Positions 1-8,133 of a stretch of 23,592 nucleotides of DNA are shown here, in pieces. This stretch comes from a virus: the IMG/VR virus record IMGVR_UViG_3300021960_000521, positions 1-23,592 of that record; one strand, given 5' to 3'. The notes below the pieces were generated by a model. It ran no database searches. It was not told the DNA's origin and was given only the letters and a program-made list of their open reading frames with translations. Within the stretch, counting starts at the first letter, position 1. Each line of letters opens with the position of its first letter. The translations under genes and the position numbers were made by a program.

Positions 1-105
1 CATTGTACAGATTAGAATAGCTCAGATCGGCCCCGCTCAGATTGGCCCCGCTCAGATTGGCCCCGCTCAGATCGGCATTGTACAGATTAGAATAGCTCAG
101 ATTGT
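1..105. repeat. 15-bp tandem units encoding pentapeptides
   Basis: The DNA is a series of 15-bp units of the form GCTCAGATTGGCCCC, one per pentapeptide. Bases 1-27 are identical to bases 76-102, giving a 75-bp higher-order period (five pentapeptides). Near-identity at the DNA level, not only the protein level, points to recent expansion by slippage or unequal recombination. Confidence 0.85.
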
Positions 106-163
106 CGGCATCGACAGTTTTTATAACTTTGCCGGTAAACCGGTGTTTGATTTCAACAGTCAT
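1..163 (-). CDS. Pentapeptide-repeat protein, C-terminus outside window
   Basis: Read leftward, the protein starts with about 20 non-repetitive residues (MTVEIKHRFTGKVIKTVDA) and then enters tandem pentapeptides of the A(D/N)LSG and S-N-L-Y-N type. These would form a right-handed quadrilateral beta-helix. The start is supported by GGAGG eight bases upstream and by a 4-base ATGA overlap with the stop of the preceding gene, so the two are probably translationally coupled. The frame is still open at base 1, so total length is unknown. Some pentapeptide proteins (Qnr, MfpA) mimic DNA and bind gyrase, but most phage ones have no known role and nothing here decides between them. The repeat fold is clear; the function is not. 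Confidence 0.88.
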   Translation of the reverse strand, partial: MTVEIKHRFTGKVIKTVDADNLSYSNLYNADLSGANLSGANLSGADLSYSNLYN

Positions 164-435
164 TCCGCCGCCTCCAAATGCAGGCCGCAATCGGTAAAGG
201 TCGCCACCGCTGCCGCCTCAATCCGAAGCACCAGCTCCTTGCCGATCATGTCGATCAGCATTTCGCGTGTGATGGTCAGGCCGCCCAGCGGGGCTGAGAA
301 AAACTCAGCGCCGACTTCCTGGTCGGGGTCGCCCGTCTCTGAAAGATACGACACAACATCAACATAGAACGTCGCCTCGGTTTCGAGGTAGCCCTCATCA
401 AGGTCAAGGTCGATTGATTTGGTGAATGTGGTCAT
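160..435 (-). CDS. Hypothetical protein, first gene of leftward operon
   Basis: A 91-residue protein beginning MTTFTKSIDLDLDEGYLE and ending HLEAAE. I do not recognise a family. It is acidic, with no signal peptide or membrane segment; alternating polar and hydrophobic stretches (LETEATFYVDVVSYL) suggest beta strands near the N-terminus, followed by a helical segment. The frame extends further upstream, but this ATG is preferred because GGGAG lies 6-7 bases before it and because a divergent promoter sits just beyond. Its stop overlaps the start of the pentapeptide-repeat gene (ATGA), so both are probably made from one leftward message facing the repressor. Confidence 0.7.
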   Translation of the reverse strand: MTTFTKSIDLDLDEGYLETEATFYVDVVSYLSETGDPDQEVGAEFFSAPLGGLTITREMLIDMIGKELVLRIEAAAVATFTDCGLHLEAAE

Positions 436-3227: not shown

Positions 3228-5276
3228 GTGAAATTGGAATCTGAAACCCCCCTTTTGCCAGACGCAGCGGAAATCCGGCGCGATCTGGAGCATATGACGG
3301 CCCGCTGGGGTGAACTTTCCGAACCTGCAAAGTTCGAAATTCGCGCTTTCAAGGAAGGCGCGCAGCCGCAAACAGCCACATTCTCGCCCGATCCTGAATG
3401 GATGCAAGAGGCTGTTGACTGGGCCGAAAACATGAACGGCCTAGGCTACAATATTTACGCCGTCAGAAACCCGATCCGCGCCACCAAATCCGGCAGCGCG
3501 TCCGATCAGGACATTATTGCCTCATTCTTTCTTTGGGCGGATTGCGATGACGATGCCAGCGCTGGCAACATCAAGAAATTCAGCGGCCCGCAATACACCT
3601 CGGCAGTGGTCACAGGCCGCACACCAACCGCCCGCGTTCATACATATTGGGCGCTTAAAGAGCCTTGCACAGACTTGGCGGCATGGCGCGACATGCAAAT
3701 GCAGATCGCAAGGCATTTCGGGTCAGACAAGACCGTTATCAATCCGTCGCGCATCATGCGGGTGGGCGGCACGGTGTCTTACCCTGATAAAAAGAAACAG
3801 CAGCGCGGATATTCTAAAGAGTTTGTTACCATCCGCACGGAATACCCTGAAGCCCGCGAGCCGGTCACACTGGACCAAATGCGCCGCGTCTTTGGCGCAT
3901 CCGCACCGGCCACAAAGGCGCTTGACATTGACACCGGCCCGCAGCCGCTGGATCGCGAGCGGCTGTCCATTCAGGCTATGGCAGGGCAGGAGTGGCATCA
4001 CGCGGTAATAAGGCTGGTCGCAAGTTATGTGTCCAAAGGCCTGTCAGACGGCGAAATCCACGCGCTTACAGACCCGCTGACGCTGGCGGGCTATACGGTT
4101 GAGGAAACCCGCCGCGAGGTGCAGACAGCCATAGACGGGGCGCGGCGCAAGGGCTGGACGCCTGAAGCGGATTACCAGCCGCACTTTGACCATTCCCCTG
4201 CATCCCCGCAAGCGGCCCCAGAATCCCCCACAGACGGCCAAGCCGTGGCGTCGTGGCGGGTACAGAAGGCAGACGCCTTCACCGCTGATTTTGTCGCGCC
4301 TGAGTACCTTATAGAGGGCGTTATCCAGCGCGGCAGGCTCTACACATTCACCGCGCCAACTGGCAGCGGCAAAACCGCCGTCATGCTTTACGCCGCAACC
4401 GCAATCAGCACCGGCAACACATTCTGCGAGCGCGAAGTCGAGCATGGCGACGTTCTATTCCTGGCCGGTGAAAACCCCGACGATGTGCGGGCGCGTGTCA
4501 TTGCCACGATGGACTTTTACGGCATAGACCCAAAGAACTGCCGCCTGCACTTTATCGCCGGTACCTTTTCAATCCGGCAGGACATTGAACGCCTTAAGAC
4601 AGAGGCGGCAAAACTGCCCAATCTGGTCATGGTCGTGGTGGATACGTTCGCCGCATACTTTGACGGCGAGGATGAAAACAGCAACGCGCAGGCGCTGGAT
4701 TTCGCGCGAGTGGTCAGAAAACTGACAGCCTTGCCCAGCAAGCCCGCGGTTGTCATGCCCGCCCATCCCGTCAAGAATGCCTCACGCGACAACCTCGCCC
4801 CAAAGGGCGGCAGCAGCCTTGTCAACGAGGTGGACGGCAATCTGACGCTCTGGAATAGCGACGGGGCGCTGGCCATGCACTGGCAGGTCAAGCACCGTGG
4901 CGCTGACTTTGAGCCGCTCAAGATGGAACTCGAATTGCGCGAATGCGACCTGCTGAAGGACCGCAAAGGCCGCTTGATGCCGACCATCCTTGCCAAGCCA
5001 TTGCTCGAAATCAGGGCCATTCAGATCGCCCGCGAAACCCTCAAAATTGAGGATCAGTTACTCCTGAACATCGCGGACGGCCCTGACCTTTCAGCCCGCG
5101 AGCGGCAAACATCGCTGGCCATTTCAAGCGGTACATACACCCGCACGATTGACCGGCTGTGCAACGACAAACTGATCCGCAAATTCCGGCGCAAGTGGGA
5201 ACTGACCAAGAACGGCGAGCGGGCAGTTGACGAGATTTCGGGCGGCGAAAAGCAGCCGCTGGAGGCCGCAGAATGA
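3228..5276 (+). CDS. Primase-helicase, RepB-like primase plus RecA-like ATPase
   Basis: A 682-residue replication protein. The N-terminal part resembles RepB/PriCT archaeo-eukaryotic-type primases: the acidic strand L-W-A-D-C-D-D-D at 102-109, then NPSRIMRVGGTVSYPDKK from 172, a signature of that fold. A linker rich in Pro and Ala (about 320-340) leads to a RecA-like ATPase with Walker A APTGSGKT at 376-383 (Lys382) and Walker B LVMVVVDTF ending near Asp472, as in RepA/DnaB-type helicases. The last 90 residues look like a winged-helix DNA-binding domain (LSARERQTSLAISSGTYTRT). It begins with GTG preceded by a GGCAGGG stretch. It should prime and unwind at the phage origin, and the GGGACAA array starts right after its stop. 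The gene ends in the recurring LEAAE/GGAGG/ATGA junction. Confidence 0.88.
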   Translation: MKLESETPLLPDAAEIRRDLEHMTARWGELSEPAKFEIRAFKEGAQPQTATFSPDPEWMQEAVDWAENMNGLGYNIYAVRNPIRATKSGSASDQDIIASFFLWADCDDDASAGNIKKFSGPQYTSAVVTGRTPTARVHTYWALKEPCTDLAAWRDMQMQIARHFGSDKTVINPSRIMRVGGTVSYPDKKKQQRGYSKEFVTIRTEYPEAREPVTLDQMRRVFGASAPATKALDIDTGPQPLDRERLSIQAMAGQEWHHAVIRLVASYVSKGLSDGEIHALTDPLTLAGYTVEETRREVQTAIDGARRKGWTPEADYQPHFDHSPASPQAAPESPTDGQAVASWRVQKADAFTADFVAPEYLIEGVIQRGRLYTFTAPTGSGKTAVMLYAATAISTGNTFCEREVEHGDVLFLAGENPDDVRARVIATMDFYGIDPKNCRLHFIAGTFSIRQDIERLKTEAAKLPNLVMVVVDTFAAYFDGEDENSNAQALDFARVVRKLTALPSKPAVVMPAHPVKNASRDNLAPKGGSSLVNEVDGNLTLWNSDGALAMHWQVKHRGADFEPLKMELELRECDLLKDRKGRLMPTILAKPLLEIRAIQIARETLKIEDQLLLNIADGPDLSARERQTSLAISSGTYTRTIDRLCNDKLIRKFRRKWELTKNGERAVDEISGGEKQPLEAAE

Positions 5277-5614
5277 CCCTTTGTCCCGCCCAAAACAGCC
5301 CAAAAACACCTGGGACAAGTTTGTCCCGCCCCATTGATTTCATTGGATTTTTTGCGGGACAAAATACCCCCTTTGTCCCGCGTTTTGTCCCGCGTTTTGT
5401 CCCGCTTTTGTCCCGCCTGGGACAATGTGGGACAAAGTTGCTTAACCTTTTGAAAAGCAAAGAAAATAAGCGGGACAAAAAGTGGGACAAAATGACCCCT
5501 AAATTGGGACAAATACAAGAACGTCCCAGCACCCCCCCTCCCTTTAGGGAGGGGGGGCTGGCGATGTATCGGGACAAACAGCGGGACAAAAGGAGTTTTC
5601 GAAATGACAAATAA
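5273..5614 (+). CDS. Doubtful ORF across GGGACAA array
   Basis: An ATG overlaps the primase-helicase stop (ATGA) with GGAGG eight bases upstream, so ribosomes could well start here. The 113-residue product is low-complexity because it merely translates the DNA repeats (FVPRFVPRFVP, then RDKKWDK and RDKQRDK), and the opposite strand is equally open. Sequence constraint therefore seems to act on the DNA, not on this protein. It could be a remnant gene overwritten by repeat growth, or a short basic peptide. Confidence 0.25.
   Translation: MTLCPAQNSPKTPGTSLSRPIDFIGFFAGQNTPFVPRFVPRFVPLLSRLGQCGTKLLNLLKSKENKRDKKWDKMTPKLGQIQERPSTPPPFREGGLAMYRDKQRDKRSFRNDK
5281..5589. repeat. GGGACAA/TTGTCCC array, possible origin iterons
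   Basis: Fifteen exact copies lie in 309 bases. TTGTCCC starts at 5281, 5321, 5373, 5385, 5397 and 5408; GGGACAA starts at 5312, 5356, 5419, 5429, 5472, 5484, 5506, 5571 and 5583. Many sit 10-12 bp apart, one helical turn, so bound proteins would line up on one face. Flanking bases usually extend the core to GCGGGACAAAA. A-T-rich stretches (5332-5353 and 5437-5470) lie among them, as in an unwinding element. The position just after the primase-helicase gene favours a replication origin; an operator cluster is the alternative. Confidence 0.75.
5532..5557. other. Strong GC hairpin inside repeat region
   Basis: CCCCCCCTCCC and GGGAGGGGGGG form a perfect 11-bp stem around TTTA. No T run follows on either strand. 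It separates thirteen GGGACAA copies from the last two. It could act as a bidirectional stop, a cruciform or primer-synthesis site at the origin, or a G-rich structure on one strand. Confidence 0.7.
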
Positions 5615-6176
5615 AACGCAGAGACCAAAACGCCAGCGCATGGGGGATCGTCTGGTCAACCCGGATGCTGTTGCGGCGGAAATTCGAATTGATCACGCGG
5701 TCGCGCCGTTTGACCGCAAGAGCCGCGAGATGGACCGCAAGTGGGGAATAGATCGGTTGCCGGAACTGGTATCGCCGGAAACGGCGGGGAAGTTTGGCAA
5801 TGCCATTGGCAAGCTGAACGCCGCGATTTCCAGCGCGGATTATGAGGAGTGCATCAAGCAAGTCGGCTCATGCATTCGCGGTCTGGAATTCATGGATCGT
5901 GAAGCCGAGGCGGCGGGCTGCGAAAAAAGCAAACCGGAAGTCTGGGAATACGACCTTGATGATTTCCACTTTGCAATCATACCCGACAATGCCCACTGGC
6001 AAGTGCTGGCAGATCAAAGGCCTGGCCTTCGGTTTTTTACGATGCGCGAAGCGGCGGTCGCGCTGAGGGCATACGCGGACAATCCGCACGTCGCAGCCGT
6101 CAAGAAATTCTTTCCTGATGCCGAGGTGGTGAAAGTCTCGCCGCGCATCGACACCAAAGAACCAATTCCATTCTAG
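5604..6176 (+). CDS. Hypothetical protein with IPF tip
   Basis: A 190-residue protein with a very basic N-terminus (MTNKTQRPKRQRMGDRL), a helical middle and a more mixed C-terminal half (WEYDLDDFHFAIIPDNAHWQ). I do not recognise the family. The start is supported by AGGAG nine bases upstream. The last residues, DTKEPIPF, resemble the DDDIPF tip of SSB proteins, which may let it enter the replication complex; this is weak by itself. It is the first gene after the GGGACAA array and two repeat copies lie directly before its ribosome site, so its expression may respond to whatever binds them. Confidence 0.75.
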   Translation: MTNKTQRPKRQRMGDRLVNPDAVAAEIRIDHAVAPFDRKSREMDRKWGIDRLPELVSPETAGKFGNAIGKLNAAISSADYEECIKQVGSCIRGLEFMDREAEAAGCEKSKPEVWEYDLDDFHFAIIPDNAHWQVLADQRPGLRFFTMREAAVALRAYADNPHVAAVKKFFPDAEVVKVSPRIDTKEPIPF

Positions 6177-6186
6177 GAGGCACAAG

Positions 6187-6558
6187 ATGAAAAACCAGAA
6201 CAAATACACACCAACACAAAGAGCCGAAATTCTGTCAAAGTGGCGGGCCATGTGCAATCGCGGCATGGTGCAGGAGGCCGCTGCGCATGAATTGGGCGTT
6301 CCGCTATCGACCGTCAATAACTGGGCGGTGCGCGGCGTAGGCGACCGACTGAAGCCCAGCGCCCTTCGCGCCGAGATTATTGACTGGCTAGAAAAGTATA
6401 AGACCAAACGAAAAGTGATTGCGCGGTTCAGCGGCCAGATTGGCGCAAATGAAATGCGGGCAATTGAGGCCGCGAAGGAGTTGCGGGACAAGGGGCTTGT
6501 CGGCATGGACGCGGCAATGCGGGGCGATGAAATTGTCGTGTGCGTGGTGCGAACATGA
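6187..6558 (+). CDS. Helix-turn-helix protein
   Basis: A 123-residue protein starting MKNQNKYTPTQRAEILSKWR. Residues 30-50 (MVQEAAAHELGVPLSTVNNW) form a convincing helix-turn-helix of the transposase/homeodomain-like type, with A-A-H-E-L-G-V as turn. The C-terminal half (KTKRKVIARFSGQIGANEMR) is basic and helical, ending in an acidic-hydrophobic strand. AGGAGG sits six bases before the ATG, one of the best ribosome sites here. It probably binds DNA, either as a middle-gene regulator or at the nearby repeats; no target can be assigned. Its stop overlaps the following gene by four bases. Confidence 0.8.
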   Translation: MKNQNKYTPTQRAEILSKWRAMCNRGMVQEAAAHELGVPLSTVNNWAVRGVGDRLKPSALRAEIIDWLEKYKTKRKVIARFSGQIGANEMRAIEAAKELRDKGLVGMDAAMRGDEIVVCVVRT

Positions 6559-6896: not shown

Positions 6897-7345
6897 GCCT
6901 GTTTGAATTATGGCGGTCCGGCCTTGTTCGCCGCTGGCACTGCAATCCTGATCTGGCACACACCGGCCAAAGTAACGCTGCGCATCAATGGGGCGTTGCG
7001 ATGATAATTCTCGCCCAACACCCAAACCCAAGCGCAGCGTTGATTAGGGCGGCACTGTGCCACGATGTAGGCGAGATGGTTGTTGGAGACCTGCCGTATC
7101 CGTTCAAAAAGGCAAACCCTGATTTTGCCGCGCGACACAGGGATTTTGAGGATATGGCCCGCGTAAATTTGGTTGGTGCATTTGATCTAACGGAAACAGA
7201 TTGGCGCTGGTTGAAATACGCTGATGCACATGAGGCAATTCTATGGATGCGACAGCACCGCCCTGAACTTGAAAGCCGCGCCGATTGGGCAGAGCAGGTT
7301 AAGCAGACCAGATACGAATTGACCCTGCTGGAGGCCGAACAATGA
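6893..7345 (+). CDS. HD-domain hydrolase, YfbR-like 5'-nucleotidase
   Basis: A 150-residue HD-superfamily phosphohydrolase. Metal and substrate residues align with YfbR-type deoxynucleotidases: RRW (13-15), NAAHQWGVAM with His31, CHDVGE with His57-Asp58 and Glu61, GDLPYP with Asp66, and KYADAHE with Asp111. YfbR-like enzymes remove phosphate from deoxynucleoside monophosphates; phage relatives can reshape the dNTP pool, for instance when the phage modifies its bases. No modified-base synthase is seen in this window. The start overlaps the previous stop (ATGA), and the end is the LLEAEQ/GGAGG/ATGA junction that leads into the cytosine methyltransferase. Confidence 0.88.
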   Translation: MSLFELWRSGLVRRWHCNPDLAHTGQSNAAHQWGVAMIILAQHPNPSAALIRAALCHDVGEMVVGDLPYPFKKANPDFAARHRDFEDMARVNLVGAFDLTETDWRWLKYADAHEAILWMRQHRPELESRADWAEQVKQTRYELTLLEAEQ

Positions 7346-8133
7346 CCAAGCTGCGCGTCCTCGATCTTTTCAGCGGAATCGGCGGATTCAGCCTTGGGCT
7401 TGAGCGGACAGGCGGATTTGAAACAGTGGCCTTTTGCGAGATTGAAGAATTCCCGCGAAAGGTTTTGGCGAAACATTGGCCAGGAGTGCCGTGCTATGAA
7501 GATGTTACCAAGCTCACAGGAGACATTCTTGAACGAGACGGAATTTCCGTTGATGTCATCACCGGCGGGTTCCCGTGTCAGGACATATCAACCGCAGGGA
7601 AACGGGCCGGGATGGGCGAAGGAACGCGCAGCGGATTGTGGTCTGAAATCGTCAGACTTATTGGCGAGTTACGACCGCGCTACGTCATCGTGGAGAACGT
7701 CGCAAACCTGCTTTCTGGCCCAAGCGAAAAACGAGGGGGATGGTTTGGCCGAATACTCGGAGACTTGGCCGAGTGCGGGTATGATGCGGAATGGGAAAAC
7801 ATACCAGCGGGAGCCGTGGGCGCTCCCCATCGTAGAGAGCGCGTTTGGATTGTGGCCAACGCCGAGGAAAAGTATGTCCTGCACCCCAACAAAAAAAGAA
7901 GTTGGGGAAATATCGAAAGGGCAAGTTCCGAATGTCCTGCGTTTAGAGGCGTGGGTATTCGGGGTATCTGGAATGCACCCGGAATTGCCTTGGGTGGTGA
8001 ACCCCCAATTTGTAAACTTGATGAGCGGTTATCCCGCGTCATGGTGCAAAATCAGCTAGCAGCATTTGGCAACACGGTTTATCCGAAAATCCCTGAAATG
8101 ATAGGCCGCGCTATTCTGGAGGCCGAACAATGA
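7342..8133 (+). CDS. DNA C5-cytosine methyltransferase, Dcm-like
   Basis: A 263-residue enzyme that methylates carbon 5 of cytosine. Motif I is LDLFSGIGGF (8-16), motif IV has the catalytic Cys79 in GGFPCQDIS, motif VI is V-E-N-V (118-121), motif VIII is APHRRERVWI (161-170), and motif X is F-G-N-T-V-Y-P (242-248). The stretch between VIII and X (about 70 residues) is short, so the target recognition region is small, typical of compact phage enzymes. The start overlaps the HD gene (ATGA) with GGAGG before it. No nuclease partner is present, so it probably guards phage DNA. Bases 7394-8059 are also open in the +1 frame, described separately. Confidence 0.95.
   Translation: MTKLRVLDLFSGIGGFSLGLERTGGFETVAFCEIEEFPRKVLAKHWPGVPCYEDVTKLTGDILERDGISVDVITGGFPCQDISTAGKRAGMGEGTRSGLWSEIVRLIGELRPRYVIVENVANLLSGPSEKRGGWFGRILGDLAECGYDAEWENIPAGAVGAPHRRERVWIVANAEEKYVLHPNKKRSWGNIERASSECPAFRGVGIRGIWNAPGIALGGEPPICKLDERLSRVMVQNQLAAFGNTVYPKIPEMIGRAILEAEQ
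7394..8059 (+). CDS. Overlapping +1-frame ORF resembling a phage protein family
   Basis: A 221-codon frame nested entirely inside the cytosine methyltransferase gene, shifted +1. It contains YDRATSSWRTSQ (7670-7705), YSETWPSAGMMRNGKTY (7754-7804), LWPTP and NPQFVNLMSGYPASW (8000-8044). These follow, in order, a pattern I remember from stand-alone phage proteins often labelled DNA cytosine methyltransferase: KYDxDTSSWKT, then SETWPRSGMMRNG, then LWPTP, then LNPxWVEWLMGFPxGW. I see no convincing start: the first start codon is TTG 7394 with no ribosome site, and an internal ATG near 7494 is also possible. It may be expressed from an internal start, by frameshifting, or not at all. The main frame has every methyltransferase motif, so this is not a simple frameshift mutation. 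Confidence 0.4.
   Translation: MGLSGQADLKQWPFARLKNSRERFWRNIGQECRAMKMLPSSQETFLNETEFPLMSSPAGSRVRTYQPQGNGPGWAKERAADCGLKSSDLLASYDRATSSWRTSQTCFLAQAKNEGDGLAEYSETWPSAGMMRNGKTYQREPWALPIVESAFGLWPTPRKSMSCTPTKKEVGEISKGQVPNVLRLEAWVFGVSGMHPELPWVVNPQFVNLMSGYPASWCKIS

Follow-up and report, generated by a model that had tools for sequence, protein, structure and literature searches.

What is the function of a dense array of short repeats that begins where a phage primase-helicase gene ends, and which protein reads it? The array lies in a virus fragment from IMG/VR that also carries genes for terminase and head proteins, and we refer to the whole 23,592-base stretch analysed as the window. We consider it very probable that the array serves as origin of replication for the phage and is read by the C-terminal winged helix of the adjoining upstream helicase. 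The original prediction had likewise pictured origin iterons bound by the primase-helicase, a reading supported by the conserved position of the arrays and by co-variation of the repeat core with the C-terminus of the protein, the binding itself being putative.

A dense repeat array follows the primase-helicase gene

Motif calls throughout are exact 6- to 8-mers. An exact scan placed GGGACAA at 5312, 5356, 5419, 5429, 5472, 5484, 5506, 5571 and 5583 (n = 9) and TTGTCCC at 5281, 5321, 5373, 5385, 5397 and 5408 (n = 6), with two further sites in the remainder of the window. The 15 sites in the region 5240-5640 compare with 0.12 on average and at most 3 in 1000 dinucleotide shuffles, and the 17 sites of the whole window with 3.35 (sd 1.9) in shuffles; the scan and shuffles thus bear out the fifteen 7-mers, nine in one orientation and six in the other, that were first described. 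Same-strand neighbours mostly lie 10-12 bp apart and the sites share flanks, with an extended consensus of a.GCGGGACAAAa, and the first site lies 5 bp downstream of the helicase stop codon (5274-5276). Spacing, common flanks and starting point all agree with the earlier description, as does the presence of A/T-rich sequence within the array (Table 1). Across 105 arrays, such spacers show no more than a slight trend towards A/T-richness. Judged by eye, the GGGACAA core is unlike the DnaA box and the LexA consensus, and full-text searches of open-access PMC found no paper linking GGGACAA with iterons. GC skew, one of the checks proposed at the outset, gave a weak hint at about 5 kb, which is weak evidence because the window is a fragment.

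Table 1. Features of the replication region, in window coordinates
Feature	Position	Strand	Remarks
Fused primase - RepA-like helicase - winged-helix protein, 682 aa	3228..5276	+	Proposed initiator
AEP/PrimPol domain, residues about 9-223	3252..3896	+	Match to cyanophage S-2L PrimPol 6zp9, Z 19.1
RecA-like hexameric-helicase-type ATPase, residues about 340-592	4245..5003	+	PF13481; RSF1010 RepA, Z 21.7
C-terminal MarR-like winged helix, residues about 605-671	5040..5240	+	MarR, Z 11.6; proposed iteron-reading domain
Iteron array	5281..5589		15 exact CGGGACAA-type sites (6 TTGTCCC, 9 GGGACAA); proposed origin of replication
A/T-rich spacer without sites, inside the array	5436..5471		31% GC; candidate unwinding element
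Perfect inverted repeat, 12-bp arms of C and G tracts, 2-nt loop	5532..5557		CCCCCCCTCCCT-TT-AGGGAGGGGGGG; between iterons
Gene of unassigned function, 190 aa	5604..6176	+	Present behind the array in almost every close relative (32-50% identity), irrespective of the core

Other features of the region were also considered. C/G hairpins similar to the inverted repeat of the window occur in four other loci (L722, L723, L741 and L486), but their enrichment near arrays was rejected, with 13/164 against 49/125 in one control region. The 113-aa ORF at 5273-5614, which spans the array, is probably an artefact of the repeats, as relatives show different ORFs there. The replication region lies between two DNA methyltransferase genes (789-1646 and 7342-8133), one of N6/N4 and one of C5 type, and a pentapeptide-repeat-like protein fragment lies at the window edge (2-190, minus strand).

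The upstream protein is predicted to combine primase, helicase and winged helix

In the 682-aa protein, AAA_25 (PF13481) was detected at 4.5e-23, with no other family above its cut-off. The whole protein was modelled by AlphaFold (mean pLDDT 83) and the C-terminal domain was also folded separately (mean pLDDT 75, core 84-90). Besides the N-terminal match to the S-2L PrimPol, the model matches RSF1010 RepA at residues 340-603 (222 residues, 3.2 A, 19% identity), and RSF1010 RepB' is also among the fold matches. The modelled C-terminal domain ends in a helix-helix-helix-strand-strand-helix arrangement and matches MarR-type winged helices over 88 residues at 3.1 A. Taken together, the fold matches of the three parts point to a primase, helicase and DNA-binding-type protein in a single chain. 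A RepC-like family was not found among ten neighbouring proteins scanned, the window being a fragment.

Arrays lie directly behind RepA-like helicases in many phages

We surveyed arrays twice, first by the GGGACAA 7-mer, a selection that is biased, and then by the helicase protein alone. Triplet patterns of GGGACAA match at least 120 IMG/VR stretches, but the reversed 7-mer also matches at least 120, apparently from coding repeats, and raw counts were therefore rejected as evidence. Among the matches listed, both-orientation arrays were found at 61 of 120 GGGACAA loci versus 10 of 118 control loci. An array lay at most about 115 bp from the 3' end of an AAA_25 helicase gene in 44 of the 46 loci of this 7-mer-based survey that have one, and of its 170 mixed arrays 67 adjoined the 3' end of an AAA_25 gene, 15 followed a VapE-domain gene and 27 were internal to a DUF1376 gene.

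The protein-only collection comprised 164 RepA-like phage helicases. A strong array (at least five sites and a score more than 1.5 times the shuffle maximum) was present between -60 and +440 of the stop in 98 of them, as against 1/125 control regions at +1100 to +1600 and 0/139 upstream. Nearly all of these strong arrays (96/98) have mixed orientation; their first site lies at a median of +5 bp from the stop and their same-strand spacing peaks at 10 bp. Multiple short phased repeats beside a putative initiator gene, as expected of an iteron origin, are what we observe. The cores in this set are varied, including GGTTACA, CGTAACA, GGTAACA, CGGGACA, CGTGACA, GGAGACA, GGTCTACA, GGAACAAA and ATCAGAA among others. 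With GGGACAA in 1/71 helicases of the first protein-selected set, its apparent commonness among distant helicases is mostly ascertainment, and we rejected it as real sharing.

Several other arrangements came to light. VapE-domain helicases with GGGACAA arrays downstream are found in loci L036, L061, L069, L305 and L347, and Pseudomonas phage vB_Pae_U5 (L478) has a CTGTCCC array downstream of such a gene, which suggests the same arrangement with a different motor. The 27 DUF1376 genes with internal GGGACAA arrays include those of L255, L279, L283, L286, L292, L298 and L302; the lambda origin is similarly located within gene O. In Pseudomonas phages phi297 and Ostro the DUF1376 gene contains CCTGTCCC in place of GGGACAA, and E. 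coli Rac has no GGGACAA, its ydaU (L354) bearing TGTTCAA repeats instead. A control search returned single-orientation AACAGGG arrays upstream of AAA_25-like genes (L156, L186, L200, L202 and L208), possibly another iteron arrangement. A pattern search of genome contigs for origins was set aside, having returned mostly 3-site clusters and repeats dispersed in a few genomes rather than origins. Contigs JAIBCB01, JAFDVK01 and CALXRR01 (e.g. L365, L361 and L359) carry many scattered TTTGTCCC/GGGACAAA clusters per single bacterial genome, apparently an unrelated interspersed repeat.

That GGGACAA arrays are found next to VapE-type helicases and within DUF1376 genes as well could point to a common factor, either a protein of the host or a second DNA-binding protein of the phage. 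We give this hardly any credence. The sharing across families arises partly because that 7-mer was the search query, and the core differs between phages of related hosts (phage 16-3 and a Metarhizobium prophage) and, among near-identical helicases, follows the C-terminus. The HTH protein encoded at 6187, which had been put forward as an alternative binder, has a homologue in the retrieved flanks of 0/39 relatives.

In two related clades the repeat core changes with the C-terminal domain

An array follows the stop in 31 of the 39 relatives of the window protein, some of the 31 being near-duplicates, under a looser cut (at least four sites and a score more than 1.25 times the shuffle maximum); at that cut no clear array was found after the stop in the other 8. 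The nearest relative, L722, whose motor is 84% and C-terminus 59% identical to those of the window, has ten copies of CCGGACA as against CGGGACAA in the window. TGGAACA occurs 12 times in L723, TGAACA 13 times in L741 and TGGGACA 13 times in L729. L291 has CGGGACAA, yet Rhizobium phages 16-3 and RHph_X2_25, whose helicases share about 70% identity with the L291 helicase, carry 15-16 copies of CGTGACA and zero of GGGACAA in the same place. In phage 16-3 (L474, after 5184), long established as a laboratory phage, the 15 CGTGACA sites lie directly 3' of p101, where they form a candidate origin. As read from these arrays, the repeat core changes in concert across an array between relatives.

The array also fills the gap before the gene at 5604, which lies behind it in almost every close relative, and the last sites abut the ribosome-binding site. 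These observations would suit an array serving mainly as an operator, through which the helicase or another regulator controls the 5604 gene and later genes while replication starts elsewhere. An operator, however, usually needs fewer than 15 sites over 309 bp, a sigma-70-like promoter was not found in 5150-5750, the downstream gene is conserved while the core changes, and the core varies with the C-terminal part of a replicative helicase. We regard a mainly regulatory array as unlikely. Of the operator alternative first proposed, a possible added role on gene 5604 is what survives, and operator and origin roles may coexist at the array.

As originally suggested, we checked for co-variation between repeat core and protein in related phages, correlating iteron similarity with similarity of each protein part. 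For the 15-member clade to which phage 16-3 belongs, rho was -0.14 for the N-terminal part, 0.02 for the motor and 0.41 for the C-terminus (excess p=0.003), and in a clade of 46 the corresponding values were 0.11, 0.17 and 0.29 (excess p=0.0005). In a third clade (clade 2) the core tracks primase, motor and C-terminus alike, so that this clade cannot tell the parts apart. Nor is the C-terminus singled out in the small family to which the window belongs, where all three parts correlate (rho 0.37 for primase, 0.25 for motor and 0.26 for C-terminus), and the assignment to the C-terminus therefore rests on the related clades 0 and 1.

Individual pairs, in effect natural swaps, agree with the pattern. 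Between L496 and L498 identity is 96% in the body but 35% in the C-terminus, and their iterons differ (ATCAGAA and GTAACAA), whereas L496 and L493, with 73% identity in the body and 82% in the C-terminus, both have ATCAGAA. Among 451 pairs with motor identity of at least 80%, which are phylogenetically non-independent and analysed by statistics that ignore kinship, the iteron is shared in 99-100% of those with C-terminal identity of at least 80% and in 11-12% of those below 60%. L287 and L291 are an exception, having motors 97% and C-termini 37% identical yet a common CGGGACAA iteron. On sequence comparison, then, the core tracks the C-terminal domain rather than the primase or motor in the two clades able to separate the parts, namely the winged helix that we propose, by homology and by analogy to clades 0 and 1, as the reader in the window phage.

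The same correlations bear on whether the sites could be clustered primase start signals, or else a partition or packaging site, rather than iterons bound by an initiator. The protein does contain a primase domain and the sites do occur on both strands. A primase signal would nevertheless be expected to track the primase domain, and the N-terminal rho is -0.14 and 0.11 in the two informative clades; helically spaced mixed arrays, moreover, fit protein binding to duplex DNA. Such roles are in our view highly improbable.

A model for initiation at the array

Our preferred reading remains that of an origin served by the adjoining helicase, with direct iteron binding and origin activity in the window phage inferred. 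In this model the CGGGACAA iterons, which are spaced at roughly 10 bp, would be occupied in either orientation by several initiator copies through the C-terminal winged helix. The bound initiators might then melt the A/T-rich part of the array and load their own RepA-type helicase ring, and priming would be carried out by the initiator's own PrimPol domain.

A broader proposal, to which we give about even chances, concerns the many phages whose primase is fused to a RepA-type helicase: their C-terminal winged helix and downstream iterons would together make up a module that sets origin specificity, evolves fast and can be swapped. Dozens of cores would have arisen, perhaps driven by incompatibility or by origin-targeting weapons, and the base preferences of the module might follow a residue-to-base code that can be read. 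From sequence alone, the analysis points to replication origins and their likely readers in a large group of phages, most of them unannotated. DNA specificity could be worked out from the many natural reader-iteron pairs that it supplies, some of which involve near-identical helicases that differ in their readers.

Comparison with known systems

The alpha protein of phage P4, whose winged helix reads the origin, resembles the window protein in having primase, helicase and winged helix in one chain, but it has a helicase of another superfamily and a TOPRIM-type primase. With its own C-terminal DNA-binding-type domain, as judged from the models, and iterons directly downstream, the window protein falls with the self-loading initiator helicases of the SaPI Rep and P4 alpha type.

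SaPI Rep initiator helicases and SCCmec Cch2 recognise, through their C-terminal domain, short iterons that lie immediately behind their own gene (PMC7581432). They share with the window these directly downstream iterons and a self-loading initiator helicase, which in the window is proposed. Their motors, in staphylococcal islands, are DUF927 or D5/Primase_Cterm, whereas that of the window, in a tailed phage, is RSF1010-RepA/AAA_25-like with a fused PrimPol. The window protein therefore does not belong to the SaPI Rep family by descent, and because downstream iterons and an own C-terminal domain are combined with a RepA-type motor we liken it to self-loading initiator helicases and not to SaPI Rep.

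The motor has the RSF1010 RepA-type fold, and RepA is its best structural match. The IncQ plasmid RSF1010 also has an iteron origin, served by three separate polypeptides, RepB'-RepA-RepC, of which RepC reads the iterons (PMC4234260). In the window, by contrast, three kinds of domain lie in one chain and the proposed reader is a MarR-like winged helix. In the PLE satellites, the DNA-binding domain of RepA_N and the origin co-vary and swap as a module, as shown by origin swaps (PMC8263062). There the reader is the N-terminal RepA_N domain of a protein in which neither helicase nor primase is predicted (PMC7145576), whereas the candidate reader in the window is C-terminal.

The PrimPol-PV1 and PrimQH proteins of mobile elements combine an AEP, a varied ATPase (RepA, DnaB, VirE and others) and a C-terminal winged helix (PMC5862659), an architecture that the models of the window protein share. 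Origin recognition by the C-terminal WH domains of such PrimPols was suggested in that paper as a guess (PMC5862659), whose text, when searched, does not mention iterons. Our data give this published guess a comparative test, adding to it the cognate downstream arrays and their co-variation with the protein.
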